A DNA stretch of 64,000 nt from Halobacteriovorax marinus. Its GTDB lineage: Bacteria; Bdellovibrionota; Bacteriovoracia; Bacteriovoracales; Bacteriovoracaceae. This document shows positions 36,751 through 52,459 of the stretch, in pieces. Where the stretch lies: contig MAAO01000006.1 of NCBI GenBank assembly GCA_002163155.1, positions 1,302,001 to 1,366,000 on the forward strand. The letters run 5' to 3'. The number at the start of each line of letters is the position of its first letter. Position 1 is the first letter of the stretch. The notes below the pieces were generated by a model. The model saw nothing but the letters and a program-made list of their open reading frames with translations, had not been told where the DNA came from and searched no databases. The position numbers and the translations under genes are program-made.

Positions 36751-37734
36751 ATGAGTAAGACTTATAAAGACGTTGGCGTTGATATTACTAAAGGTGATGC
36801 CTTCGTAGAAAAAATTAAAAAGAAAGTGAAGTCTACTTACGGAGAAAATGTGATCTCCGGAGTTGGTGGTTTTGCTTGTCTCTATAAAATGGATGATGAG
36901 AGACTGCTCAGTGCTGGAACTGATGGGGTGGGAACAAAACTCCTTCTCGCTCAGAAGTTCAATAAACACGACACGATTGGAATTGATCTGGTCGCCATGT
37001 GTGTAAATGATATTCTCTGTACTGGTGCCAAACCACTCTTCTTCATGGATTATCTCGCTTGCTCATCTCTTGATGTAGAAGTCTCTTCTTCTATTGTGGA
37101 TGGCGTGGTTGAGGGATGTTTACAATCATCCTGTGCGCTCATTGGCGGAGAAACCGCAGAGATGCCAGGACTCTATAAAAGTGGTGAATACGATCTTGCT
37201 GGATTTGCCGTTGGTGAAGTTTATAGAGATAAGCTTGTTGATGGAAGTAAAATAAAAAGTGGTCAAACCATTCTTGGTCTTCCTTCAAGTGGCGCCCATA
37301 GTAATGGATATAGTCTACTTAGAGAGATCTATAAAAATGACGATGAAATGTTGCAACGTCTCTTAACTCCCACTAAGATTTACACTAAGGAAGTGACTCC
37401 TCTTATTAATGATGGACTTGTTTCTGGAATTGCTCATATCACTGGTGGTGGAATTCATAATATCTCTAGACTAAATAAGTCCCTAGATTATGAACTCAAT
37501 TCATGGCCTGATATTCATAGTGCTAGTTTTATGGACGCTCATACTGATCTCTTTTCTAGAATTTCAAAAGATTCCAAGTTAAGTGATGAAGAGTTATATA
37601 AGACTTTCAATATGGGGATTGGTATGGCGATTATGACTGATCACCCAGAAGAAATCCTCTCTCTCATCCCAGGCTCTATGGTCTTAGGGGTAGTGAAAGA
37701 GGGAAGTGGAAACACTTACATGAGAACTTTATAA
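36751..37734 (+). CDS. purM: AIR synthetase PurM
   Basis: The 327 residues (slightly short of the usual 345) carry the PurM signatures VGGFACLY, GTDGVGTKLLLAQ, GGETAEMPG and ITGGGIHNISR. It closes the imidazole ring of AIR. It is the last gene of the operon, with TAGGA just after the purH stop, and converges with the TSUP gene with a 19-bp overlap. Confidence 0.96.
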   Translation: MSKTYKDVGVDITKGDAFVEKIKKKVKSTYGENVISGVGGFACLYKMDDERLLSAGTDGVGTKLLLAQKFNKHDTIGIDLVAMCVNDILCTGAKPLFFMDYLACSSLDVEVSSSIVDGVVEGCLQSSCALIGGETAEMPGLYKSGEYDLAGFAVGEVYRDKLVDGSKIKSGQTILGLPSSGAHSNGYSLLREIYKNDDEMLQRLLTPTKIYTKEVTPLINDGLVSGIAHITGGGIHNISRLNKSLDYELNSWPDIHSASFMDAHTDLFSRISKDSKLSDEELYKTFNMGIGMAIMTDHPEEILSLIPGSMVLGVVKEGSGNTYMRTL

Positions 37735-38444
37735 AGAATTCTAAGCCCTGCAAAGAGTAGGGCCCCTTTGAAAATATATCGGAAAGACTTCTCCTGGATC
37801 TTTCCGAGTATTTTTACTCCCAGATGTGTTCCAAGTAGAGCTCCCACTGTTAATACCGCTATTAAATTTACATGTTCTAGGTAATTAAATCCTAGGTAGA
37901 AAAATGTTGGTAGTTTCACTAAATGACCAACTACTTGCACAGAACTCTTAGTGGCAACTATTTGCTCTTTAGTGAAATCAGACCTGATGAAAAAGGGAGC
38001 TATGAATGGTCCGGTGGCACCAATGAGTGGCCCTAAGATTCCTACACATACTCCCACAAAGGAGAAACACCAATACGGGAGTTTGATCTCTGGTAGGCGT
38101 TTGGGTTTAAAAACGCTATAGAAAATAAGCACAGCGATGAAGATAAGAAAGATATCTTTATTTTGAATAGTTTTAATAATTTTAATGGAAATCAATGTTC
38201 CTATGGGAACACCTGCACAGAACCATAGAAAAATCTTTCTAATGACATTGTCTCTTAAAAGCCAAGTTCTAGTGGAGTTACTAATGAGCTGAACTACTCC
38301 ATGGATGGGAACAATGACACTGATATCTAGAAAGAGAGTTAGAATGGAGAGGAGAACAATTCCTCCTCCCATACCACTCACTGCTGAGATAATTGCCGTT
38401 AAGGATCCACAAATAAAGAGAAAAGTTAAAACCAATGGGCTCAT
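37716..38444 (-). CDS. TSUP (TauE/SafE) family transporter
   Basis: The 242 residues contain about eight hydrophobic helices in two similar halves, with the small-residue motifs of TSUP permeases (ISAVSGMGGGIVLLSIL near the start and GPLIGATGPFIAPFFI in the middle). Family members move sulfite, sulfoacetate or other organic anions. The substrate here is not determined. The start overlaps the end of the RlmK-like gene by 4 bp, and the 3' end overlaps purM. Confidence 0.85.
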   Translation of the reverse strand: MSPLVLTFLFICGSLTAIISAVSGMGGGIVLLSILTLFLDISVIVPIHGVVQLISNSTRTWLLRDNVIRKIFLWFCAGVPIGTLISIKIIKTIQNKDIFLIFIAVLIFYSVFKPKRLPEIKLPYWCFSFVGVCVGILGPLIGATGPFIAPFFIRSDFTKEQIVATKSSVQVVGHLVKLPTFFYLGFNYLEHVNLIAVLTVGALLGTHLGVKILGKIQEKSFRYIFKGALLFAGLRILYKVLM

Positions 38445-39361
38445 TTCTTTTTTATTTCAAAACAAACGTGGATTTTCTTATCTTTAAAATCTTCAGGGAT
38501 AGTATTGAACGATATATCTTTTACATCAAATAGTTCAGAAACTTTAGGATCTAATCTAAATCCTCTCTTATTATTTGAGAAATAGAGAATTCCATCTTCA
38601 TTTAAAAGCTTCATACACCTTTCAATGAGAAAACCGTGATCTCTTAATATATCAAGCGTGTTACTCATTCTCTTGGAGTTACTAAAAGTAGGGGGATCTA
38701 AGAAAATAATATCAAATTTCTTCTCTTTATATTCATTCATAAATTTAAAGACATCAGCATTTATAAACTCATGATCTTTAAGTGGGATATCGTTGGCCTC
38801 AAAATTATCCTGACTCCATTGTATATAAGTCTTAGACATGTCTACATTAGTGGTGATTGCACCACCAAGAGCTGCTTGCACAGAAACTACACTGGTATAA
38901 CAAAAGAGATTTAAAAGACTCTTGTCTTTGGAAGTGGCGTTTAATTTAAGGCGCATAGGTCTGTGATCTAGAAAAAGTCCAGTGTCGATATAATCAATGA
39001 GATTAACAAGAACTACGGCGTCTTTCTCTTTGACTTCAAAGCGATTATTAGTGGAATCAAACTTCTCGTACTTATCTTCTTTAGTTTGAATAATTCTCTT
39101 TTTAATGATGATGTCATCACTCTTCATTTCAAAAATTTCACAAATGGCGGTGATCATTTCATCGTAGAGTTCAGGTTTTGCTTCATCAATCTTGTCGATT
39201 CTTCGATCAAAGATGATGACTTTGTCTTTGTAAATATCAATTAAGTAGGGATATTGTGGAATTTCCTTGTCGTATAAGCGGTATGCCTCAAATTGATTCT
39301 TCTTGGCCCATTTTCTACGATGTTTTAAATTCTTGAGTAATTTGTTTTTTATTTCGCTCAT
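38441..39361 (-). CDS. rlmK: RlmK-type 23S rRNA methyltransferase (stand-alone)
   Basis: The 306 residues match the C-terminal (RlmK) half of the fused RlmKL enzyme, which makes 7-methylguanine at position 2069 of 23S rRNA: NLKHRRKWAKKNQFEAYRLYD at the start, NLIDYIDTGLFLDHRPMR, LLNLFCYTS, TTNVDMSKTYIQWSQ, and FLDPPTFSNSKRM and FSNNKRGFRLD. The RlmL half is absent here. This is a rarer split form. The four-base overlap with the TSUP gene implies co-transcription. Confidence 0.82.
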   Translation of the reverse strand: MSEIKNKLLKNLKHRRKWAKKNQFEAYRLYDKEIPQYPYLIDIYKDKVIIFDRRIDKIDEAKPELYDEMITAICEIFEMKSDDIIIKKRIIQTKEDKYEKFDSTNNRFEVKEKDAVVLVNLIDYIDTGLFLDHRPMRLKLNATSKDKSLLNLFCYTSVVSVQAALGGAITTNVDMSKTYIQWSQDNFEANDIPLKDHEFINADVFKFMNEYKEKKFDIIFLDPPTFSNSKRMSNTLDILRDHGFLIERCMKLLNEDGILYFSNNKRGFRLDPKVSELFDVKDISFNTIPEDFKDKKIHVCFEIKKK

Positions 39362-39408: not shown

Positions 39409-42120
39409 ATGTTATTTAAGAGAATTTCTCTATTCATTCTACTCTTTGTTTCCCTGTTTGCAAAGGCCCATGGGGTTAGCGATATTCCGCCTTTTATGGC
39501 GGATGAAATTGCTGCTAATACTTGTCCTCTTCCTAGTTCTCTAAGCCTAGTGCTAGGTGATGGAGCGGCCAATGAAGAACTCTTTGAATTAGGTGAAACT
39601 ATGGAGAGTTATGAATGTATGAATAGGGAGAAGTTGTATAGTAAGTGCGATTGTCTTGATAAGGCCAATTTCAAACCCTATCCTGAAGATGTATTGGATT
39701 TTGGGGAGCGTTTTCAGACTGAATTAGCTACAAGAGACTTAGCGACAAAAGTATTTGAGCTCAATAGAAAATGGTTTATCTATAAACAAATGATTCAAAT
39801 GAATGGGCAAGTCCTACCAAAGTGTGAAATAGATAATTTCTCCGACTACGCAAGGGAGTCTTTAGAGGATATTTATAGCTTAGAAGAATTTGATCATGTA
39901 AGAAAATTTTTCTTTGATAAACATGGTTATACTTTTAATTTTGACTCCCAGCAGACGACAAGAAAAGTCCAAAGCCATGTCTTAATAGATATGTTCTCAG
40001 GAAATAGTGCTGATCAAGATTACTACTCATTTCCTTTAAAGAAAGAAGTAGTGCTTTCCTTTGTTACGAGGATTATTAACTCATCAACTTACTATAGTAA
40101 AATATCTGAAAGACACGTCTTTGATTATAAATCAGTCAGTGAGAACTATGAGTTATATTTCGATGAACTTTTAAAAGATCATGGTTTTCTCAGTGAACGC
40201 GATATTAAAGCAGTAAGAAATAAAATGAAAGATCTCACTTATCTGGTAATTAAGACTGCTTCAGGTATTGATAAAGTCACTAAAGAGGATATGAAGGACT
40301 TTAACAAGGTTAAAGCAGTAGTTGAGTCTACTTTGAATGCCTATTTTGTAGAGATGAGTAAAGACTATCAAAAGGACTGTAAAGAAATTGGAAAAATCTT
40401 TTCAATCTACAATGATGATTATGAGTATTTAAAGTCTTACACAAATGAAATACCTTTTAAAAAACTACTAAGTGCTCTTGAATCTTCACAGGGAACAATG
40501 GTTGGATTACACCTTATGTGTCAGGCCATGAAAAAAGAAATTCCTGCTAAATTTGGAAATTATCAAGCAGCACTTAAGAGTCTAAGAACACAAAACGTAT
40601 CTATTGTTGCTCAAAAAAATGAAGAAAAATTTAATTTGATTCTTTCATTTCCAAAAATTGGATCACCTCTACCTCCACTAAATCTTGTGGCGATTGATGG
40701 ACTTGATAAGTTAAAGCTTAAAGAGAAAATGAAGTCAGCTAGAGAAAGAGTTAAAGCAAAGAGAGAACAAGATAAGTCCAGTAAACGGGTACGAAATCAC
40801 GTTAAAGAAAGGCTAGCGAGATTAGAGAAAATATCGTTTAGAAGTTTTAAACCTTCTAGTTTAAGTACAGATCCTTCAATAGATGAAGCACTCGCTAAAA
40901 TTCCTCTTCAAGTAGGGTATATGAATGGTCCAGTTATGACTGTTCCAGATATGGTTATGCCTCTCTTTGCACCAGAAATGGTAGAACCTATTCATTTTGA
41001 TATGTCCTCGAATGCAACGGTTAGACCAATAGCAGTATCTAGTATAAATGAAACTATTTTAAATCGAGTTCAAGATATTGTGAGTAATAGAAACCTCTTA
41101 GATACTGATTTAGAAACTGCAAAAAAGACAAAAAAGTTGCCTGAAAACAATAATAAAGTAACGAAAACAACTAAGAAAAGTGATTTAGGAAATTCTTCTA
41201 AATCAAATAAAGAGAAAGATGAAAAAGAAATTCGTTTAGTTAAAGAAAAATCCAAGAAGAGCTTTTTTAGCTACTTCTCAAGTCCCGTAAGTTATGTGGG
41301 ACAAACTGGGGCTGTCTCGTTCCCTAGCTTTGGAGAAGACTTTAAAAAGAGAGATAAGATTGTCTACCAGCAAGCTTCAGTTGCTAAGAGGTCTAAGAAA
41401 TTTAAAAGAAAGAGTGTTGTCGATCCACAAGTTAAAAAGTACGCAGACAGCACTAATAAGCGCATAAGAAAGAAGGTTAATGCTGAATATAACTATGATC
41501 AATACTTGCAAAAGAAGCGACTCTTCGCGGTGAATAAACCCAAGATTGATCTTCAAAAAATCAAACGCATGAACAATCTTGCAAAGAAAGTATTCGAGCC
41601 TAGTGGCAAAATTGATTCTAGCTCAGTTAGTAAGAGAACTTTGAAAAATCAAATGGCCTCCATAAAGAAAGAGGATGTGGCTAAACAGGCCAAAAAGGCT
41701 GCTAGATATGATGGTACATCAAAAGCTAATACGATCGCTTCAACAGTTACTAGTACAAGTTCTAACTCAACTCCTACTAATTTAAGTACTGGTTATGGAA
41801 CTGCTAGTTATGAAAAAGAACATGTGAAAAAGAAAATCAAACCTAAGAAATTCTTATTTGAAAATGATTTTAAACAAATGGACAAGGATGACATCTTAGA
41901 TTTTGCTGATTCTTCACACTTTGTTTATGTTATTGTGAAAAAAGAGTTTCAACATATTCAAGTCGATTTTCTAGAAACTTATGAATACCAGATTATAAAC
42001 GGAGAAGTTTTTAAAACTCTTATCTCTTCAGAAAATATTCTAAGAGTAAAACCAACAGGTAAGAAATTAGAAGTTATGAATGAATTCTTTTTTCTAAAAA
42101 GAAAAGGTGTTGTTCAATAA
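39409..42120 (+). CDS. Large exported protein of unknown function
   Basis: The protein has 903 residues with an N-terminal signal peptide (MLFKRISLFILLFVSLFAKAHG). A cysteine-containing first part (NTCPLPS, ESYECMNREKLYSKCDC) is followed by long helical stretches and a very basic, Ser/Lys-rich low-complexity region (about 590-800), then a compact C-terminal domain. No family was recognised. The ribosome-site-like TAGGAG touches the ATG with no spacer, and an in-frame TAG lies just upstream, so the start is unusual. Its 3' end overlaps the converging kinase gene by 47 bp. Confidence 0.7.
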   Translation: MLFKRISLFILLFVSLFAKAHGVSDIPPFMADEIAANTCPLPSSLSLVLGDGAANEELFELGETMESYECMNREKLYSKCDCLDKANFKPYPEDVLDFGERFQTELATRDLATKVFELNRKWFIYKQMIQMNGQVLPKCEIDNFSDYARESLEDIYSLEEFDHVRKFFFDKHGYTFNFDSQQTTRKVQSHVLIDMFSGNSADQDYYSFPLKKEVVLSFVTRIINSSTYYSKISERHVFDYKSVSENYELYFDELLKDHGFLSERDIKAVRNKMKDLTYLVIKTASGIDKVTKEDMKDFNKVKAVVESTLNAYFVEMSKDYQKDCKEIGKIFSIYNDDYEYLKSYTNEIPFKKLLSALESSQGTMVGLHLMCQAMKKEIPAKFGNYQAALKSLRTQNVSIVAQKNEEKFNLILSFPKIGSPLPPLNLVAIDGLDKLKLKEKMKSARERVKAKREQDKSSKRVRNHVKERLARLEKISFRSFKPSSLSTDPSIDEALAKIPLQVGYMNGPVMTVPDMVMPLFAPEMVEPIHFDMSSNATVRPIAVSSINETILNRVQDIVSNRNLLDTDLETAKKTKKLPENNNKVTKTTKKSDLGNSSKSNKEKDEKEIRLVKEKSKKSFFSYFSSPVSYVGQTGAVSFPSFGEDFKKRDKIVYQQASVAKRSKKFKRKSVVDPQVKKYADSTNKRIRKKVNAEYNYDQYLQKKRLFAVNKPKIDLQKIKRMNNLAKKVFEPSGKIDSSSVSKRTLKNQMASIKKEDVAKQAKKAARYDGTSKANTIASTVTSTSSNSTPTNLSTGYGTASYEKEHVKKKIKPKKFLFENDFKQMDKDDILDFADSSHFVYVIVKKEFQHIQVDFLETYEYQIINGEVFKTLISSENILRVKPTGKKLEVMNEFFFLKRKGVVQ

Positions 42121-44479
42121 CCTTCTTACAATGCTCTACTTTAAAGGGTGGCGTTAAGAGTCTATAATCAATTTCACTTTCAAATTGCCAATTAGACAAA
42201 AGGTAACAATCTGACTGTTGTGACTTTGATAGTATTTCATCAATAACTTGAATCCCATTTTTCTTCCCTCCTGATTTATCCATGACGTAGTCACAAATAA
42301 TTAATGAAGGATGGGAATTTGCTAGAGAATTGAGTAAGTCTTCCCCTTTATCAAAGAGGTGTAACTCTAAGGTAAGGTTTGGAAAGTATTGTTTAATAGT
42401 CTTTGTAAATGTAGCCTCGAGGTTCATATTACTTAAGAGATCATCATTACAAGCGTAGATAGTAAGTTTCGTTTGACCATCTCCATAACAAGTAATTTCT
42501 TCGTGTGTTGTTTTCCCTTCTTCGTTGGACCCTTGCCATATAAGCGCTTCATGATCAGACCCTTCTGCTGACTCTAGCGTAAAGGTTATTTGTACTTCAG
42601 AAGACTTATTTAAATTCTTGGCCCAAATATCTTGTCCGTGTAGATTTATGATCTTTCTACAACTTGCGAGCCCTAGTCCAGTGCCACTAGCTTTTCCTTT
42701 AGAGTAGAAGGCCTCAAAGAGTTGCGCCACATCTTCCTTAGGAATAAGCGGTCCACTATTTATTATGGAAATGGAAGTTATGCCATTTCTTTGTTTTGAA
42801 GTGAAGCGTATATGTTTATTTGGAGTCTCAGACATGAGTGTTTGCGCTTCTATGGCATTTGAGATGAGATTTGATACCACTCGTACAATTCTTTCTTTAT
42901 TGGCGAGAACTAGACCTTGATGATCTAGCTCAAAGACGATTTGCACACCGTGCCTAAGAAGTTCTCGACTATTTAACTTGAGAGATTCTTTAATAATGTT
43001 CTTTAGAGAATGTTCTTTTAACTCTAGTGAGCTCTCTCTTGAGAAATCTAGTAGAGTGGCGAGTAAGTTTTCACTATGCTCGATACTATAATTTAATTCC
43101 TCTGTGATTTTTGCTAGCTTTCCAGGCGTCATTCTATGTTCGTCAAAATTTTCTAGCACCGAGGATAATTGACTAAGAGGTTTTCTAAGGTCGTGGGCCA
43201 TCATCTTGGCCGTATCGCCAATGGCGGCATCTTGCGCCTGATTTATAATGAGAGAGTTTTGTTTCTCAATAGTCATCTCGTTAGATCTAAACTCAAGGGC
43301 ACTATTTAGCGTTAAGATAATAAGCACTGAGATATCAAAGTAAGGCAATAGGGCATAGTTCTTTGAGATGGCTATATAGAGACATATGGAAGAAATGAGA
43401 CCTAGGAGCATACACACTATCTTTAAAAAATTGCCTTTCTTTTTATTTTTTCTAAAAGATGAGATCTGTTTTAGACAAATAATTAAACTAAGTATGGGTC
43501 CTAAGGCAAAAACAAAGGAGATAATATTTACACCTAAGTTTGATGAAATATATCCTGTAGGTATGAGAAAACTAATTAGCGAAGCAATCAAAAGAGTTGT
43601 GGCAAACCCTAGAAGCTGTACTTTCTTGTCTATTTCAAGCTTAGCTATCCTAGCAAAAATGATAAAGAGAAAGTAAGACCAAAGGGTTCGTGAGAGAAAG
43701 AGTAGTAAGAGCCTTGTTTCTCCCTTAGCGAAAAGCAGTGAGAGATGACCTGAGGCCACGACACTAACTAATGAACAACAACTTAATAACAGCACATACC
43801 AATAGAGTGTTTCTTTTCTAACCAGAAATTGAAAGAGAAAGAAGACAAAGATAAAGGAGACGAAAACCATGGCTATCAGTAAGGGTTTCGTGAACTTGAC
43901 CCTTTCTGCATGGAAGTAAATATTGGTGAGTTTATTAGTTCTTCCTAGAAAGAAGAAAGTATCAGAAAAACCTCCACGGGCCTTTGAACTCTTAGTTTTA
44001 AATACAAAGGTTATTGAGTCATTTTCTAATAGATCATTTGAGATGGGAATCTTAATATAGTCTAGCGCAGTTAAGCCTGTTGAAAAAGACCCTACATACT
44101 TCCCATTCAACCAAATTTTTACTTCCTCAAAATCTAATTGAGAAATGAGAATAGCTTTAGGGTAGTTTAAATTATTGGTACTTGTTGGGTTTTTTATTTC
44201 AACTTTATATAATCCACTTTCTCCAAGACCGATCTCTTTACCTTTAATTGTTTTGATAATTTCAAAGGTATGATTATGGATATTTTTAAAACAATCCATT
44301 ACGCATTTGATTTTCTCTTTGGTGCTCTTAGAGATCCGTATGGAATTCTTAGGGATCGAGAAGACTTCATTATTAATCGTGAGATTAAAAGAAGATTCTA
44401 GTAGAGAGAAAGTATAGAAAAGTCCCACTATAATAGTGAGACCAATAGCAATGGTAGATAATTGTCTAAAAAGTTTCAT
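42074..44479 (-). CDS. Hybrid histidine kinase with 7TM (DISM-like) sensor and receiver
   Basis: The protein has 801 residues. After a signal/anchor helix (about 8-28) comes a periplasmic strand-rich domain to about 195, then seven hydrophobic helices (about 198-395), the layout of 7TMR-DISM sensors. The H-box is MAHDLRKPLSQL with His429; the ATPase has NLISNAIEAQT and GTGLGLA. The last 120 residues are a receiver-like domain with LIICDYVMD holding the acceptor Asp, although the N-terminal acidic pair is weak (YACNDD). It is probably a membrane sensor with an attached phosphate acceptor; the target is unknown. Confidence 0.86.
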   Translation of the reverse strand: MKLFRQLSTIAIGLTIIVGLFYTFSLLESSFNLTINNEVFSIPKNSIRISKSTKEKIKCVMDCFKNIHNHTFEIIKTIKGKEIGLGESGLYKVEIKNPTSTNNLNYPKAILISQLDFEEVKIWLNGKYVGSFSTGLTALDYIKIPISNDLLENDSITFVFKTKSSKARGGFSDTFFFLGRTNKLTNIYFHAERVKFTKPLLIAMVFVSFIFVFFLFQFLVRKETLYWYVLLLSCCSLVSVVASGHLSLLFAKGETRLLLLFLSRTLWSYFLFIIFARIAKLEIDKKVQLLGFATTLLIASLISFLIPTGYISSNLGVNIISFVFALGPILSLIICLKQISSFRKNKKKGNFLKIVCMLLGLISSICLYIAISKNYALLPYFDISVLIILTLNSALEFRSNEMTIEKQNSLIINQAQDAAIGDTAKMMAHDLRKPLSQLSSVLENFDEHRMTPGKLAKITEELNYSIEHSENLLATLLDFSRESSLELKEHSLKNIIKESLKLNSRELLRHGVQIVFELDHQGLVLANKERIVRVVSNLISNAIEAQTLMSETPNKHIRFTSKQRNGITSISIINSGPLIPKEDVAQLFEAFYSKGKASGTGLGLASCRKIINLHGQDIWAKNLNKSSEVQITFTLESAEGSDHEALIWQGSNEEGKTTHEEITCYGDGQTKLTIYACNDDLLSNMNLEATFTKTIKQYFPNLTLELHLFDKGEDLLNSLANSHPSLIICDYVMDKSGGKKNGIQVIDEILSKSQQSDCYLLSNWQFESEIDYRLLTPPFKVEHCKKVIEQHLFFLEKRIHS

Positions 44480-44543: not shown

Positions 44544-45668
44544 TTATAAAGGATATATCTGGTAGGCGTGATTTAGAAGTTGCTCGGCCCATTCGTATTC
44601 TCTAAGAATAACAGGAGCGTTTAAATGCTCTTCTTCACCATCTGTAGCTGGATCATAGTCATAAAGTGGCATTGATTCATTTGGATAAATTGAATCTCTT
44701 ACGTAGAATACGCCTTTACCGCTACATCCACCATCAGTTGCTAGAGAAGTGGCAACTTGAGTTCCTCTTTTTCTAAACTTTAAGGCCTTTCTAAGCAATT
44801 TCTTTTTCTTCTTAGGATCTTCCTCTTCAGAGGCCTCAACATTTATTTCATCTGCTCTCTTATTCATGAGCTTGTCGTACTTTGAAACAAATGGACAATT
44901 CTTAGAATCTGTATTGTCGTTAAAACCTACAATCATAGTAGCGTGCCAGTATCCTACGTGATTGTAGATAGCGATCACTGGGGCATTTCTCTTTTTGATC
45001 ATATTCTTAATTTTAGTCACGATATCCTTAGGAGCCGTCGTCACATTCCATCTATTTTCAGAAGGATCTTTAAAAATAATTTCTCTTTCAAATTCTGGAA
45101 GTTTTACTAGGGGAGCTGTAAGATCTTGATACATACTCATCCAGCTATAAGAGATACCGTACTTAGCACCTTCTTCGTCTTCACGGGCAGGAATACGTTT
45201 GCCACCAGCTTTCTTATACCAACCCTTAGCATACGGGTAGTCAGAGTTGAGATAGATTTCTCCACGCTTATTAAGGGCGTAAATCATATCTGTAGGCCAA
45301 TAATTTAAATCGTCATCAAGGCCTTCTTTAGAGAGATTCATAAAGTATCTCTCAGATAAATTCTTCTTCTCTGTGTTTCTAATACGTTTATTTAATTTTG
45401 AGTACCACCATTCCACAGTTCCCGTGTGACTCATAAAGAGACAGCTTCCCGCATCTTCTTGGTCTGGGGCAGGCATGATGTGCTTAAGTAGTTTGTTATA
45501 TCCACCTTTAAAAGAATTTTCATCTGGAGTCATGGCCTTAGTCATAACGGGACGAGATCCTTCTGAAATTGAATTTGGATATTTAGCACCAATCACAAAG
45601 CTTGGATCATTCATGATCGTTGCAAACGATGAGCTCATAAGTACATACAATAAGACGTATTTAATCAA
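44544..45668 (-). CDS. Exported papain-like (C1-type) cysteine peptidase
   Basis: The TTG at 45668 is chosen because AAAGGAG lies 6 bases upstream and a signal peptide (IKYVLLYVLMSSSFA) follows; the longer frame to 45716 has neither. The active-site region QEDAGSCLFMS has Gln70 and Cys76 with papain spacing, and YWHATMIVGF supplies His242. At the place of the third residue the sequence has YVRDSIYP, an Asp325 instead of Asn. A long charged insert (about 265-305) separates them. It may be active with an altered triad or be a binding protein. It is divergent from the amidoligase-type gene pair. Confidence 0.75.
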   Translation of the reverse strand: MIKYVLLYVLMSSSFATIMNDPSFVIGAKYPNSISEGSRPVMTKAMTPDENSFKGGYNKLLKHIMPAPDQEDAGSCLFMSHTGTVEWWYSKLNKRIRNTEKKNLSERYFMNLSKEGLDDDLNYWPTDMIYALNKRGEIYLNSDYPYAKGWYKKAGGKRIPAREDEEGAKYGISYSWMSMYQDLTAPLVKLPEFEREIIFKDPSENRWNVTTAPKDIVTKIKNMIKKRNAPVIAIYNHVGYWHATMIVGFNDNTDSKNCPFVSKYDKLMNKRADEINVEASEEEDPKKKKKLLRKALKFRKRGTQVATSLATDGGCSGKGVFYVRDSIYPNESMPLYDYDPATDGEEEHLNAPVILREYEWAEQLLNHAYQIYPL

Positions 45669-45887
45669 TTTATACTCCTTTAAATTAATAGAGCGAAATA
45701 GTACGGCTTGAGTCATTGATATACACGTTGCAGTGAGTAGAAGAATAGAATTATCAACTACTTAAGCTTATTTTTTTTAAAAAGTACTCAAGCCACAGCC
45801 TCAAGTAACCGAGTAGTCATAGGAATAAATACATAAACACGTAAGTGTCCAATGAATTGGTAGTGAAAACCACAAAAAGGGGTATAA

Positions 45888-46859
45888 ATGAAAATTTGGA
45901 AGAATAGACTTCCTAGAGTCGTACTAGCTGTGTCTTTAGGTTTCTTAATTCAAGGTCAGGCGATGGCATCTGCCATTAAACTCGTTGATATTTTAGTTAA
46001 TGAAACGGGTCTAAGTGAATCTCTTTCTAAGCATGGTATTAGAGGTACTAGTGCGACTAAGGTAAAAAGTTACGTTAGAAATTCTGTGAGTTCTCTCTAT
46101 CTTTATGGAAATAAGAAACCAACGGCTTCTCAATTAAAGAGATTTGTTAGGGGAATCAAGGCGACTGGAAAAGACGCTCGTTATAAGAGTGATCTCTTAA
46201 AATTATTAAATAAATCTGAAAAAAAGATGTCACAAAAAGATCTGGTCACTGCGATCAACTCTCTTATCTATTTAGCTAATAGACATGGAAAGAGTAGTTC
46301 GGCCATTCTTGCTTGTGCTGCCTGTGTGAGTGATTCACTTTCTAAGAAAGGTTTTAAGTTTACGCTTGAAACTATGAACAATAAGCAATCTAAGAAAGTT
46401 CTCTCAAAGATGCTTCCAAGCAACCCAAGATCATTAACAAACTATATCAATGCTAAACTTGGTAAATTCCAAATTGGAAGCTTATCTGGATCTGGCAAAC
46501 TAGTTGCAGCTGAAGAAGAGAAGGCGCTTGGTTTATTTCTAGGTTTAAAAGATGTTGGTTCAAAGCAACAAAAATCTCTTATTGGTGCTATTGAAAATCT
46601 TTCAAAAGATAGCAGTGGGAAAGTCAATATTATCAACCCACAAAATCCTCATAAGCTTTGGAAACTTTTTAGTGAAGATATTTCTGAAAGTGAAATGTCT
46701 GGTTGGACAAGTCTTTTAGACGAAGTTGCCAAGAAGTCTAAAGGTAAGACGAATAAGAAAGAAGTTTTCTTTGAAATCTTAGAAGGACGTGCAGCAGGTA
46801 AGACGGATCTACAAGATCGTGTTCAATCTCTGAAAAATAAAAACTGTTTCTTTAAATAA
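45888..46859 (+). CDS. Exported protein of unknown function, partner of amidoligase gene
   Basis: The protein has 323 residues, with a signal peptide (LPRVVLAVSLGFLIQGQAMAS) and a strong ribosome site (AAAAGGGG). The mature part is helical, basic (many Lys/Ser) and has one pair of close cysteines (ACAACV). I do not recognise a family. Only 21 bases separate it from the double-amidoligase gene, so they are probably one operon. Confidence 0.7.
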   Translation: MKIWKNRLPRVVLAVSLGFLIQGQAMASAIKLVDILVNETGLSESLSKHGIRGTSATKVKSYVRNSVSSLYLYGNKKPTASQLKRFVRGIKATGKDARYKSDLLKLLNKSEKKMSQKDLVTAINSLIYLANRHGKSSSAILACAACVSDSLSKKGFKFTLETMNNKQSKKVLSKMLPSNPRSLTNYINAKLGKFQIGSLSGSGKLVAAEEEKALGLFLGLKDVGSKQQKSLIGAIENLSKDSSGKVNIINPQNPHKLWKLFSEDISESEMSGWTSLLDEVAKKSKGKTNKKEVFFEILEGRAAGKTDLQDRVQSLKNKNCFFK

Positions 46860-46880
46860 ATAATTAATAAGGATTTTAAA

Positions 46881-49800
46881 ATGACTAATAACAAAAAGAA
46901 AAACATCAATTGGAAGCTGCTTCCGGCCAATCTGGCGATGATGTCTTTACTCTACAATTGTTCAAGTGTCTCAACAGGACCTCGCTACGTTGCTGATGAC
47001 AGTGCCGGAGCGAGATCAGCTTATGATACTTGGGGTTACTTACAACAAGGGGCCACTTCTTATAACGCCAATGCCGTACAGGTGGAAGGATCAAATATTG
47101 ATGGTTTCCTCTCTGGTGTTACTTGGGGTGCTGAAAAAGAAGCTTCATCTGGTTTAGTGACAAGAATTATGGGACCCGGTGGCGATGACTTTAAAAGGTA
47201 TGTTGCAGGTCTTAATGATCAGGATAGAAAGAAATTTATCTCTGACTTTCTTGGCAACTACGTAAAAGATGTTAACGGTTATAGAACTTATAAGACAGAA
47301 CAAGGTGTGAAAGTTGACCTTGCCTCTGATGTAAAAGATATCGATGGAAACGCCAAAGTTATTGATCTCGATCAACTACGCGGTGTTGACTACGCAACGG
47401 CAGATCTCTCTGTTTTAGATGAGAAGTTTGCAAAGTTTGTCGACATGACTGATGACAGACCAATGTCATTTATCAAACCAACTGTTAAGTTAAAATTATT
47501 TAAAGCTAAAATGCCTGGTCTCGAAGGAACAAGCTTTCCTAAGAACTATAGAAGTTATCTACCAAACTTTGGTTTAGCTCAGAAATACATCGAAGATGCC
47601 CATGGTCACTACGGTGGAGTTGGTGGAGGATGGGAGCTAGGTTTTGTTCCTCAAAATTCATACGCTGAATTTGAAGAGATGGTGACTTGGTTTAGAAGTG
47701 AACTTAAAAATGCCGGGAGACTTTTCCAAGCTCCAGGGCATCAGAGAATGGTTTTCAAGGCCCATACTCAGCTGCCAGAAGCAAAACTAGCTGAACTTTA
47801 CCGTGGTATTCAGGCGCTGATTATTATTGATGGGATTAAAGGAAAAACTGGTATTGAAAAAGCCAACTATAAAGGTGTGCAAACAGATAGTGGACTGGCC
47901 AGTCTTAGAACTCAACGTGGAGTTATTAGACTAGAAGGACCTAGATGGAAAGCTGGAACTCACGGTGTTGAGTTTAGAGCGGGAACAAAAGATTTAAAGT
48001 TAGCGCGTTTCTATCAAACGGTACTAGCTTCAAGAGTTTCTTCAAATGACTATAGTGGACTTTCTGATATTGGCAGTTGGAAACTATGGGATGGAAATAT
48101 TCCAACTAAATCAACTCTTGCACAGAGACATGGTATTACTGAATCAGTTGCCGAAAAAGCTTTAGCTAAAATTAGAGAAGGTAATCTTAAACATGAATTT
48201 ACAATTCCTCTTTGGAATTGGGGTGATGAAAATAACCCAATCCTAAAAGGTAATAAGAGAGCGATGGTAAATTCTCTTTCAAAGGACTTCTTTGAGCAAG
48301 TGGCAGCACTTGAATCAACAGGTAAGACTTTAGAGGGCGATGTAAGAAGCCTACTAAGAGCATGGACGAAGATGACTCGTCTTTCTGAAGAAGTTAAGAG
48401 ATATATCCAACCACGTCGTGGTCTAGATATGGCAGAGGACCTTCTACAATTTAATCTTCCAGAAGGAAGGCACTTTGTAAGAAATGTTGTTGACGTAAAT
48501 ACTATCGATCTTGGTATTGAGTACTCTGGTAAAATGCCAATGATGCTAAATGCAGAAATGACTCCAGATAAAATGGCCGACAATAAGAAGGCGTGGATCC
48601 AAACTTTTGGTGATTTAACAGAAGATGAAAGGGAAGCCACAGTTAGAAACGTAGCTCAAGACCTTTCTAAGTCTCTTGGTGGTGACGGTGTTGCGACTAA
48701 GGTTGTTGACGGTGGTGGACACGGTCACGGACTTGAACTTTCATACACAATTCGTGATCCTCAAAACAGAAAGTGGATTGTTGAATGGGATGGGATTGGA
48801 AGAACTTACACGCCAAATGGTGATGTGATTGATGGTTCTGCTAGAGCTGGTTCAATTGAGCTAGTAACACCAAAATTCATTCCTGATGTCTTAGAGATTG
48901 ATGCTGTTTATGATGCATTTGAAAAGAATAATATTCTTCCAAATCTTCTCTCTGGTGGTGGGCACGTAAATATTGACCTTGCGGCCTTTGAAGGAAAGCC
49001 AAAAGAGCTTGCTAGATTTATGACAATTTTCCATGAGAACAGATCTGTAATGTCACTTATGTTCCAACACGTAAATCGTGTGAAAACATCTGAGCCTATT
49101 GCGATTTCTGATACCCTCTCTAATAAACTTAAGAACTTTAATGGTTCAGAAGATGAACTAAAGAAGCTTCTTTATAATGAGCAGTATTACAACACTCGTT
49201 ATGGAAGAAAGTCTAGATATCTTCAATTAGATATGTCTGCTTATTTCCAGGATGTGATTCCAGAGCAATTTGTCACAGATGATTTTGATATTGCTAATCC
49301 TACTGTTCCTTGGAGAAGACAATTTAGAGTTGATCCAAGAATAAGAAAAGCAGAGTTTAGAATGTTCAATGCTCCAAGAGATACAGCTGAATCAGCTCTA
49401 CAAATTAGACTGGTTAAGGCAATGCTCTCTAAAGCATTAAACGAAGAAGACACTTTATCAGGAGCAGTACAAAATACTGGTCACACTGATTACTTAGCAG
49501 ATACTGATAAGGCCTACGCAGATTTAGAGAAAATGTGTAATCAATTAGGACTAAATGTTGATGATTATAAGCCGTCAGTTGCTGAAGGTTTATCTGAAAC
49601 TGATTTAGCTACTAGATCAATTTTCTTTGAAAGTTATGAGCAAAAAATGGTTGTTCATCCAAAGCAAAGAGGTTGGGGAGAAGCTGTTAATTCTAGAGAA
49701 ACTCCACTTAATTCTACAGGTAGAGTTTGGGAGCCAGGTGCTGCTGATGAGTTAAACACTATGACTCACCAAAATAGAATTGAAGCAGCTGAAGAAGGTG

Positions 49801-49895
49801 CTAGAAGAAGAGCGGCGATTACACCAAATCGTACAGTTCCAGTACAATTCAGAAGAACTGATAGTTGTATTGATTCTATCGGACCACTTCTTTAA
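46881..49895 (+). CDS. Exported protein with two amidoligase-like (glutamine synthetase fold) cores
   Basis: The protein has 1004 residues. A charged start and hydrophobic stretch ending LLYNC suggest export, maybe as a lipoprotein with an atypical lipobox. Residues 540-840 follow the Amidoligase_2 pattern: DLGIEYSG (543-550), DGSARAGSIELVTPKF (651-666), GGGHVNIDL (692-700) and RKAEFRMFN (822-830). A weaker first core (about 225-385) repeats it with GGGWELGF (248-255), GHQRMVF (286-292) and HGVEFRAGT (361-369). The family joins carboxylates to amines with ATP, which is puzzling for an exported protein. AAGGA precedes the ATG. Confidence 0.7.
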   Translation: MTNNKKKNINWKLLPANLAMMSLLYNCSSVSTGPRYVADDSAGARSAYDTWGYLQQGATSYNANAVQVEGSNIDGFLSGVTWGAEKEASSGLVTRIMGPGGDDFKRYVAGLNDQDRKKFISDFLGNYVKDVNGYRTYKTEQGVKVDLASDVKDIDGNAKVIDLDQLRGVDYATADLSVLDEKFAKFVDMTDDRPMSFIKPTVKLKLFKAKMPGLEGTSFPKNYRSYLPNFGLAQKYIEDAHGHYGGVGGGWELGFVPQNSYAEFEEMVTWFRSELKNAGRLFQAPGHQRMVFKAHTQLPEAKLAELYRGIQALIIIDGIKGKTGIEKANYKGVQTDSGLASLRTQRGVIRLEGPRWKAGTHGVEFRAGTKDLKLARFYQTVLASRVSSNDYSGLSDIGSWKLWDGNIPTKSTLAQRHGITESVAEKALAKIREGNLKHEFTIPLWNWGDENNPILKGNKRAMVNSLSKDFFEQVAALESTGKTLEGDVRSLLRAWTKMTRLSEEVKRYIQPRRGLDMAEDLLQFNLPEGRHFVRNVVDVNTIDLGIEYSGKMPMMLNAEMTPDKMADNKKAWIQTFGDLTEDEREATVRNVAQDLSKSLGGDGVATKVVDGGGHGHGLELSYTIRDPQNRKWIVEWDGIGRTYTPNGDVIDGSARAGSIELVTPKFIPDVLEIDAVYDAFEKNNILPNLLSGGGHVNIDLAAFEGKPKELARFMTIFHENRSVMSLMFQHVNRVKTSEPIAISDTLSNKLKNFNGSEDELKKLLYNEQYYNTRYGRKSRYLQLDMSAYFQDVIPEQFVTDDFDIANPTVPWRRQFRVDPRIRKAEFRMFNAPRDTAESALQIRLVKAMLSKALNEEDTLSGAVQNTGHTDYLADTDKAYADLEKMCNQLGLNVDDYKPSVAEGLSETDLATRSIFFESYEQKMVVHPKQRGWGEAVNSRETPLNSTGRVWEPGAADELNTMTHQNRIEAAEEGARRRAAITPNRTVPVQFRRTDSCIDSIGPLL

Positions 49896-49919
49896 GTTTT
49901 AAATATTTTGATTTTAATG

Positions 49920-49947
49920 AGGCCTCCTTTTTGGGGGCCTTTTTTTA
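49920..49947 (+). terminator. Rho-independent terminator
   Basis: The stem AGGCCTCC/GGGGGCCT with a 5-base T loop is followed by seven T. It lies between converging genes, 25 bases after the amidoligase-type gene. Confidence 0.9.
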
Positions 49948-49948
49948 T

Positions 49949-50317
49949 TTATATTCCAAATTCAACGAATATTTCTTTTAAAGATTGCTTACTAATGGGT
50001 TTACTTAGAAAGTGATTTACACCTCTCTGTAACATATCATTTTTAATTTTGTCATCCGTACTTGAAGATACCGCCACAACTGGCAGTGCATCCAGACTTT
50101 GATTGCCTTTGATAAACTTCAAAACTTCATCTCCAAGGATATCAGGTAAGTAGTAGTCAAGAATGACAAGATCGTAGTGATTTTCTTTTAAAAGATTAAG
50201 AGCATGGATACCCGTGGCCGAGACATCAGTTTCAATATCTTTAACCTTAAACAATCTCGACATGAGTTTGCTAAAAATGGGATCGTCATCAATCACTAAA
50301 ATGGTCTTGTCTGTCAT
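49949..50317 (-). CDS. Single-domain response regulator (CheY-like)
   Basis: The 122 residues are a complete receiver domain without output: IDDDP (acidic pair), LVILDYYLPD with the phospho-acceptor Asp, the conserved Ser in AVSSST, and Lys in LSKPIS. It would pass phosphate to or from a kinase. No kinase is adjacent; the nearest are at 42 kb and 8-12 kb. AAGGAAAAG precedes the ATG. Confidence 0.92.
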   Translation of the reverse strand: MTDKTILVIDDDPIFSKLMSRLFKVKDIETDVSATGIHALNLLKENHYDLVILDYYLPDILGDEVLKFIKGNQSLDALPVVAVSSSTDDKIKNDMLQRGVNHFLSKPISKQSLKEIFVEFGI

Positions 50318-50487
50318 GCCTTTTCCTTAGCTAAAGTAGCCCCCAGTATACATCTCTTTCACTTATCAAAAGTTAAGACATACTAAAATTAAGGTGAAAT
50401 TGAGCTTTGAAAATTGAGGAAGAGTTGAATTTGAGAGGATTTATTTGCATTAGAATAAATTAAACATTTTTAACTTTCGGAAAATCT

Positions 50488-51288
50488 ATGGTCACTGAAA
50501 AGCAGAATATTGAAAAAGAAAATAAAAGAGAAGCTCTAGAGTATATTGAGCAAACGGAACTGTGTATTCACTATATTTTAAGTAAGGAGAGTCAACTCTC
50601 TCGTGAGTACGGAACTATTCTTACTAGTATACAATCTTTGAAAAACTCTCTTATCAAATTTGGCCTTTCCAGTGAATCAGACTTGGTTCAAATGATTGAA
50701 GATATAGTTAAAATTTATGAGAATAAAAAAGAATTTAGTGAATCTGATTTAAATGCCATTCTTAGTTCCTTGGCCATTGTGGCCTATCGCTTGGAGGGAA
50801 ACGACCACAGCATTTCCCCCAGACTCTTTGAGGATATAAAACATCTCTTAGGTGATCATTCCTGTGATTTAAGTCAGTCGTTAAAGAGACTTGATACTAA
50901 ACACGTGATGGATGATCATTTCTTAAAAGTCTTAGTTATCGATGATGATCCTGACTACCAAGTGTTACTTAAAGCAAAATTATCCAATTTCTGTAATATA
51001 GATTTTTGTTCATCAGCTGATGAGGGAATAGGTCTCATTAAAGAAAACCCAAAAAATTATCAAGTGATCTTCTGCGATTATAAAATGCCAGATGAGAATG
51101 GACTCTATCTGGTTGATGTTCTACGTACTTTGGACTTTGATATTCCCATCGTTGTGTTCTCTGCAAATGCTACTACAACGGATTTAAAGGAAATACTGGA
51201 AAGGGAAGTCTACTCGTATATAGATAAACTCGATGGAATTAATCCCTTTAAATTGGTAATCAATAAAATTCAACGAAAGGCGGCCTAG
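50488..51288 (+). CDS. Response regulator with unknown N-terminal helical domain
   Basis: The protein has 266 residues. About 1-140 is helical (possibly HPt-like or a dimerisation part, with no clear phospho-His motif). About 148-266 is a receiver with LVIDDDPDY, VIFCDYKMPDENG (acceptor Asp), VFSAN and a final YIDKLDG that supplies the conserved Lys. It is divergent from the CheY-like gene 170 bp away, so both may serve one pathway. Confidence 0.85.
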   Translation: MVTEKQNIEKENKREALEYIEQTELCIHYILSKESQLSREYGTILTSIQSLKNSLIKFGLSSESDLVQMIEDIVKIYENKKEFSESDLNAILSSLAIVAYRLEGNDHSISPRLFEDIKHLLGDHSCDLSQSLKRLDTKHVMDDHFLKVLVIDDDPDYQVLLKAKLSNFCNIDFCSSADEGIGLIKENPKNYQVIFCDYKMPDENGLYLVDVLRTLDFDIPIVVFSANATTTDLKEILEREVYSYIDKLDGINPFKLVINKIQRKAA

Positions 51289-51382
51289 CTATTCTTTTGT
51301 GCGTCGCGCTTCTATGTTACATTTGTTTCTTGCAAGACTGAGTAAATTTGTAGACAATTGTCCAAATTAATTTGGAGAATAA

Positions 51383-52459
51383 ATGAATTTACTTGCGATA
51401 TATTTAATATCTTTCTTTTCTATTGCTCACGCTGAGATAGACTTTGATTCTCCTTTTCTAGGCTCAAGGCCTGCGATCAATGATCTAGCTGAAAAGACTG
51501 ATCTACCGCTTAAGACTGATATTCATGCACTCATAGGATTGCAATCTTCTGTGAAGTCACAAAAGTCGCGCGGTACTTGTACAATGTTCTCCTCCATGGG
51601 ATTTATCGAACACCTCCTTATTAAGAATGGTCTAAGTTCTAGCGAAGTTGATCTCTCTGAAGAGTGGATGGAATATATTATAATGACGAAGAAGACCACT
51701 GAAGGATCTTCAATCTCTAAGAACTTTAGATCGATCTACAAAAATGGTTTTGTGATGGAATCTACTTGGCCGTATGTTGGAAAGAAGTGGACGAGCTTAG
51801 AGGACTTTCCTCTTACTCGTGAGCGTTGTGGGCACCTTTCTGGAATAGAGCTACAGAGCTGTTTTCTAGGACACAGAGATCCAAGACTTCTTACAATGAA
51901 TGATCAATCAATTTTAAGTCACGATGCTGAATTTCTTCCTATAAAGAATGAAGGACTTAAGAACTTAGAAACTGTTAAAACTCTTATCAAGAAAAAGAAG
52001 TCATACCGTTTAAGAACGCTTTCAAAAGTTAAAACGCTTCTAGCAAATGGAACAGCAGTTATCATGGGTGCTAAACTCTATTACGGTTCATGGAATCATA
52101 GTAAGACGGATAAGTTTGAAATCCAACCAAGAGTGAAGTCTAGATGGTATGAGGGAATAGTATCTTATCCAGCACTAGGATCTAAAGACAGAAGAATCTC
52201 TGGTGAGCGCGGTGGTGGTCACTCGTTAATAATCGTGGGTTACGATGATGAAAAAATTGTTAAATCAAAAATGATGATGGAAGACGGAACTTGGAAAGAG
52301 TTTGAATACAAAGGTGTTTACTACTTTAAAAATTCTTGGGGTGTAAGAGGTTCAGGTAAGAGATTTAAACTTGATGGAAAGTCTTATCCAGGGTTTGGAA
52401 TGATCACTCAAAAGTACGCCCATGAATTTGGAACGTTCTTTTATATTGAGACGTTATAG
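51383..52459 (+). CDS. Exported papain-family (C1A) cysteine peptidase
   Basis: The 358 residues begin with a signal peptide (MNLLAIYLISFFSIAHAE). The catalytic set is complete: Gln60 and Cys66 in SQKSRGTCTMFS, His280 in GGGHSLIIVGYDD, and Asn317 in YYFKNSWG. There is a short pro-region (about 20-50), less than in plant enzymes. It should hydrolyse peptides in the periplasm or outside. It is the second papain-like gene in 8 kb and the one with the intact triad. The 3' end overlaps the next gene by 6 bp. Confidence 0.9.
   Translation: MNLLAIYLISFFSIAHAEIDFDSPFLGSRPAINDLAEKTDLPLKTDIHALIGLQSSVKSQKSRGTCTMFSSMGFIEHLLIKNGLSSSEVDLSEEWMEYIIMTKKTTEGSSISKNFRSIYKNGFVMESTWPYVGKKWTSLEDFPLTRERCGHLSGIELQSCFLGHRDPRLLTMNDQSILSHDAEFLPIKNEGLKNLETVKTLIKKKKSYRLRTLSKVKTLLANGTAVIMGAKLYYGSWNHSKTDKFEIQPRVKSRWYEGIVSYPALGSKDRRISGERGGGHSLIIVGYDDEKIVKSKMMMEDGTWKEFEYKGVYYFKNSWGVRGSGKRFKLDGKSYPGFGMITQKYAHEFGTFFYIETL

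Follow-up and report, generated by a model that had tools for sequence, protein, structure and literature searches.

A predicted exported protein with a glutamine synthetase fold in Bdellovibrionota, and other exported ligase-like proteins of the phylum

What might a protein with a glutamine synthetase (GS)/amidoligase fold do when it appears to be exported? ATP is scarce outside the cytoplasm, which counts against an extracytoplasmic ligase. The question is raised by AmlC, a protein of 1004 aa encoded at 46881-49895 (+) of the window, by which we mean the whole 64,000-nucleotide stretch of Halobacteriovorax marinus that was analysed. The host genome has 4.5 Mb, and its relatives belong to Bacteriovoracaceae, Halobacteriovorax and other Bdellovibrionota.

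The amlC gene lies 21 bp behind that of UnkB (45888-46859, +; 323 aa), an exported helical protein. On the opposite strand, PepA (44544-45716, -; 390 aa ORF), a candidate exported papain-like cysteine peptidase, is separated from UnkB by a 171 bp intergenic region (45717-45887). From the gene coordinates the promoters of both divergent units are expected there; no convincing sigma-70 match was found in this region. Because terminator-like hairpins end both AmlC (49919-49941, +, with a T run) and PepA (44539-44518), UnkB and AmlC are predicted to form one transcription unit, with PepA divergent. A preliminary description made from the sequence had placed AmlC in an operon with an exported unknown and beside one divergent peptidase, and both placements are borne out; the four ORFs that it described are real. 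The same description left out two response-regulator genes (49949-50317 and 50488-51288), behind which a second exported peptidase, PepD (51383-52459, +; 358 aa), stands as a separate unit. The two-component genes at 42074-44479 and 49949-51288 were considered as members of the system and rejected, since their conservation in relatives is inconsistent. In relatives, a TauE/SafE permease and a SAM methyltransferase (37716-39361 in the window) directly follow pepA; here a histidine kinase gene and the gene of a 903-aa exported protein (39409-44479) separate them from it.

AmlC was found in 61 of 368 Bdellovibrionota genomes, covering 31 of 181 genera, and conservation on this scale excludes chance. 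A scan of about 85,000 species returned only records named as Bdellovibrionota or consistent with it, where records titled Deltaproteobacteria, Proteobacteria or bacterium were counted as consistent; in these searches AmlC is restricted to the phylum. The order UnkB-AmlC is kept in 15 loci, the window included, and a divergent PepA lies directly upstream of UnkB in 14 of them. PepA itself gave a strong match in 11 of 114 sampled genomes, 10 of which have an operon-type AmlC; in one of these 10 (G015) the two are on different contigs, and the eleventh (G086) has PepA with no reported AmlC. PepD, an optional neighbour, was found in 8 loci, roughly one in two of the loci whose flanks could be used. 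The expected co-occurrence of all four genes in Bdellovibrionota therefore stands for UnkB, AmlC and PepA, while PepD does not appear to belong to the core. Other lineages carry AmlC without these neighbours, often extended at the C-terminus by about 1000 residues of helical repeats (HEAT_2), and behind the gene of a shorter, diverged form there is frequently one for a subtilisin-like protease (identified by eye). At one locus (L069:4436-7567) a 1044-aa exported low-complexity protein with Lys/Ser, Thr-Ser-Thr and Ser/Asp repeats is encoded directly upstream of an AmlC gene.

The AlphaFold model of AmlC, with an alignment of 44 sequences as input, has a pLDDT of 86.3 and a pTM of 0.85. Its top Foldseek and VIA matches are glutamine synthetases and YbdK, and the likeness falls on the second half of the protein (residues 540-860; 48498-49460, +), with a Foldseek probability of about 1. 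The glutamine synthetase 8ooz_J matches this half with a VIA Z of 14.6 (3.9 A over 257 residues), and YbdK (1r8g) matches residues 540-917 of the model with a Z of 13.0. Judged on the model, the second half is a GS fold, and so for this half the structure overlay came out as the preliminary description had anticipated; neither of the two outcomes it named as refuting, a fold other than GS or a lack of co-occurrence in relatives, was observed. With glutamine synthetase and YbdK (GCS2) the fold is alike, but the identity is about 11-12% and both length and location differ. Among viral models (BFVD), phage amidoligases are the top named matches (Foldseek E 1.8e-5). At the sequence level, the window's AmlC scores 19.1 bits as an ORF against Pfam Amidoligase_2 (PF12224, cut-off 22) and 22.1 bits on the whole frame, a borderline assignment, and the same family matches 36 of the 44 homologues, with a best E of 1.4e-8. 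A citation in PMC4431377 (Iyer et al. 2009) places Amidoligase_2 in the COOH-NH2 ligase branch of the GS fold. AmlC is like Amidoligase_2 in fold, in the Pfam match of its homologues and in its Glu/His/Glu-x-Arg residues, but unlike it in being apparently exported, in its length of about 1000 aa, in its putative further GS-like half and terminal Cys, and in adjoining UnkB and PepA. A PDB sequence-profile search with the whole of AmlC or either half gave nothing useful, no match was obtained in PHROGs, and no AmlC homologue was found in the viral contigs searched.

The first half (residues 80-388; 47118-48044, +) shows, in the AlphaFold model, a succession of strands and helices like that of the second. 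The motifs GAEKE, GWE, GHQ and VEFR stand in place of GIEYS, IELVTP, GGHVN and AEFR of the second half, and in either half the spacing from this Glu to the His is 35 for most sequences. Profile searches meant to link the first half to GS or to the second half gave no match, and no credible match was obtained when the two halves were compared by profile (probability 4.5% and 0.7%). Therefore, of the two GS-fold cores claimed at the outset, the second is confirmed by structure matches, and for the first it is the residue pattern and the order of secondary structure elements that suggest a second GS-like core.

This residue pattern is strongly conserved. In the first half it comprises E85, E87, E252, H287, E364 and R366, all identical in 44 of 44 sequences except E252, which is kept in 40. 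In the second half, E547, E635, D637, E660 and H695, together with H614 and H616, are identical in 44 of 44, and E825 and R827 are kept in all 43 sequences that cover them; the position of the second Glu in the first strand of GS is taken by a Ser/Thr (S549), a departure that counts against the ligase reading preferred below. The residues were mapped to GS metal and substrate ligands by motif and order, not by coordinates, and their ligand roles are those known for GS. The invariance holds down to homologues only 23-25% identical. The Glu/His/Arg residues thus proved conserved when checked, and this conservation argues for a working enzyme. It also bears on the suggestion, made in the preliminary description, that the fold now serves another purpose, such as binding peptidoglycan peptides. 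A protein that binds these, or nucleotides, and catalyses nothing would have no need for ATP, and the HEAT-like repeats of some large homologues are a binding architecture; nevertheless, this reading fits poorly with GS-type Glu, His and Arg residues that stay invariant in divergent homologues, and we consider it rather improbable.

We then have to ask on which side of the membrane AmlC would work. Export signals were judged by eye. In the window, the signal sequence (46881-46958, +) contains a lipobox-like LLYNC, and in most operon-type homologues a Lys-rich start leads into a hydrophobic stretch, with a lipobox-like Cys at residues 21-28. More distant homologues have signal peptides, many with an A-x-A type site at the end. 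AmlC is accordingly predicted from its sequence to be Sec-exported and mostly lipid-anchored, in agreement with the export first proposed for it; as a lipoprotein it would stay on its own cell unless surface-exposed or released. If AmlC were instead cytoplasmic, its hydrophobic N-terminus being only an anchor or the result of a misread start, it would have ATP at hand and would be located as other GS-fold ligases are. Against this, homologues at 36% identity and even below still have the Lys-rich start followed by a lipobox or signal, very few Cys occur outside the signal apart from one at the end of the protein, and UnkB and PepA have signal sequences too. A cytoplasmic AmlC is for these reasons very improbable.

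The UnkB model (pLDDT 86.5) is helical, and a fold search against PDB gave no credible match, the best Foldseek E being 0.88 and the VIA Z at most 4.7. C143, C146 (as C143-x-x-C146), C320 and F322 are invariant in the alignment. In nearly all cases the proteins end at Cys-Phe-Phe or 1-2 residues beyond; in the window the end is CFFK (46845-46856, +), of which the Cys and the second Phe are the invariant residues. The family is wider than AmlC and was found in 52 of 356 genomes, all in one family (f1). The host genome has a paralogue as well (C1:166080-167015), beside very large exported proteins. At this locus (L121, C1:157000-176000) the paralogue lies between exported unannotated proteins of 1568 and 1336 aa, and the two accompany it in several relatives.

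AmlC is not the only candidate of its kind in the phylum. When PF12224 was searched in 114 Bdellovibrionota genomes, most of the non-AmlC members inspected carried signal peptides. For example, in the lipoprotein L157:4924-8451 Amidoligase_2 is joined by an R2K ATP-grasp domain, L156 combines an amidoligase with a weaker ATP-grasp match, and L158:6123-8534 is exported and has two amidoligase motif sets, Pfam matching the first. L159 and L162-L166 are further exported amidoligases; L102, L160 and L108 appear cytoplasmic. Another exported family, LigN, was found in 83 of 356 genomes (e.g. L125:9597-10958, L174:7485-8828 and L065:6630-12983). Its sequence weakly resembles NIS siderophore synthetases (IucA/IucC): FhuF (PF06276) matches 4 of 12 members, with a best E of 0.0035, and an HxQN motif was seen by eye. 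No PDB match to LigN was found by sequence profile. LigN adjoins UnkB paralogues (L125, L135) and in one case precedes AmlC within a single fused protein (L065/L179, 47% identity); one genome has LigN and no listed AmlC.

A feature common to these proteins is a Cys within the last 24 residues, found in AmlC (C996; 49866-49868, +, in a tail at 49866-49892), LigN, most exported amidoligases and UnkB. Several of these proteins have no other Cys in their mature form, including some of 1800-2100 residues. A tail Cys was counted in 56 of 68 ligase-type proteins from the collected loci, compared with 68 of 238 among the remaining exported proteins (Fisher p 1.4e-15, a value overstated by the relatedness of the sequences). 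Most exported members without a tail Cys have one near the mature start in a C-x-x-hydrophobic context (L091-L093, L097, L162, L163, L165 and L166, and L096 loosely); among the others are L161, with a membrane helix at its C-terminus, and L094, a fragment. That a lone tail Cys is a general mark of exported proteins was considered and rejected: only 13 of 302 exported proteins have one in a sample made up of ligase neighbourhoods, and of these 13, 10 are ligases and 3 are encoded near AmlC. The terminal Cys may serve as a disulfide with a partner, as an anchor or as a sorting mark. For sorting, the comparison is with the MYXO-CTERM tag, in which an invariant Cys lies near the C-terminus of exported proteins (PMC11980579). 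AmlC and UnkB are similar in being exported with a C-terminal Cys, but their tails do not fit the MYXO-CTERM pattern of Cys, transmembrane helix and Arg-rich end: they end 0-17 residues past the Cys with no membrane helix. A further difference is that in a few members of the ligase set it is the mature N-terminus that bears the Cys. In the literature searched, mostly openly accessible papers, we found no description of this exported ligase repertoire or of its terminal-Cys mark. What is new is that Bdellovibrionota export amidoligases, amidoligase/ATP-grasp proteins and LigN, nearly all Cys-marked at one end.

Turning to the peptidases, PepD matches Peptidase_C1 above the Pfam cut-off (E 1e-6), and C66, H280 and N317, a Cys/His/Asn triad, are invariant in 8 sequences. 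For PepA the C1 match is weak (E 0.15, below the cut-off), while Q86, C92 and H258 are invariant in 13 sequences and BLAST groups it with PepD. Of the two flanking papain-like peptidases claimed earlier, PepD is borne out and PepA is a candidate. In the main rival to the ligase reading, AmlC would be a hydrolase with a GS fold, acting as an amidase, isopeptidase or deamidase, and would cleave amides of peptides or proteins outside the cell in concert with the peptidases. The pupylation enzymes PafA and Dop have a GS fold and make or cleave protein isopeptide bonds, and Dop needs its bound nucleotide only as a cofactor. An AmlC of the Dop type would solve the ATP problem and would account for the linkage to PepA and PepD, for the subtilisin-like protease beside the diverged form and for the conserved catalytic residues. 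On the other hand, GS-fold hydrolases are rare, and the fusion of other exported amidoligases of the phylum to ATP-grasp domains suggests ligation. We regard hydrolysis as the less probable direction, though as one to be taken seriously. PafA and Dop also differ from the present system in being cytoplasmic, with a single GS domain, a Pup tag and a proteasome; no Pup tag or proteasome was seen here.

Neither the GS fold nor the secretion of a GS-family ligase is without precedent. The actin-crosslinking domain is a secreted and translocated GS-family isopeptide ligase that uses the ATP of the target cell in its cytosol (PMC2908040). Compared without sequences, it resembles what is proposed for AmlC, a GS-family protein working outside its producer; it differs in being a toxin domain for eukaryotic cells, whereas AmlC is encoded in a lipoprotein operon with a peptidase.

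Our preferred reading, the likeliest of those weighed here and one on which our confidence is evenly poised, is that AmlC would be a working GS-type enzyme whose reaction, outside the cytoplasm, yields amide or isopeptide bonds, as its residues, its model and analogy suggest. Two observations favour bond formation: the retention of the catalytic residues and the export of amidoligase/ATP-grasp fusions in the phylum. In this scheme AmlC, exported and mostly lipid-anchored, would form the bonds; UnkB, from the same predicted transcript, would be its helical exported partner; and the divergent PepA would plausibly mature, trim or remove the modification. If the host is a predator, the prey cell or bdelloplast would be the likeliest ATP-containing site, since the hosts belong to Bdellovibrionota, a phylum with many members that live in prey. 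A work in the reference list of PMC4834554 (Ruby and McCabe 1986) concerns an ATP transport system in intraperiplasmic Bdellovibrio, and therefore ATP may be present around the predator in its prey. Catalysis, ATP use, the direction of the reaction, its location and substrate, and the roles of UnkB and PepA are all what we infer. A bolder version, which we hold to be a long shot, is an extracytoplasmic and possibly prey-directed system of protein conjugation. AmlC would attach the UnkB-type C-terminus (...Cys-Phe-Phe), or some other tag, to wall peptides or target proteins, PepA would process or remove them, and the terminal Cys would be a handle for docking, disulfide formation or anchoring; the exported amidoligase/ATP-grasp and NIS-like proteins of relatives would act as AmlC does.

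ATP-dependent ligases are unexpected outside the cytoplasm. The shared terminal Cys is a second unexplained feature, directly testable by mass spectrometry. If the preferred reading is true, a conserved exported set with intact active-site residues, found here only in Bdellovibrionota, would suggest that components of the prey or the envelope are covalently modified in a way not yet described, and it could be tested whether predators use prey ATP to form bonds outside their own cells.
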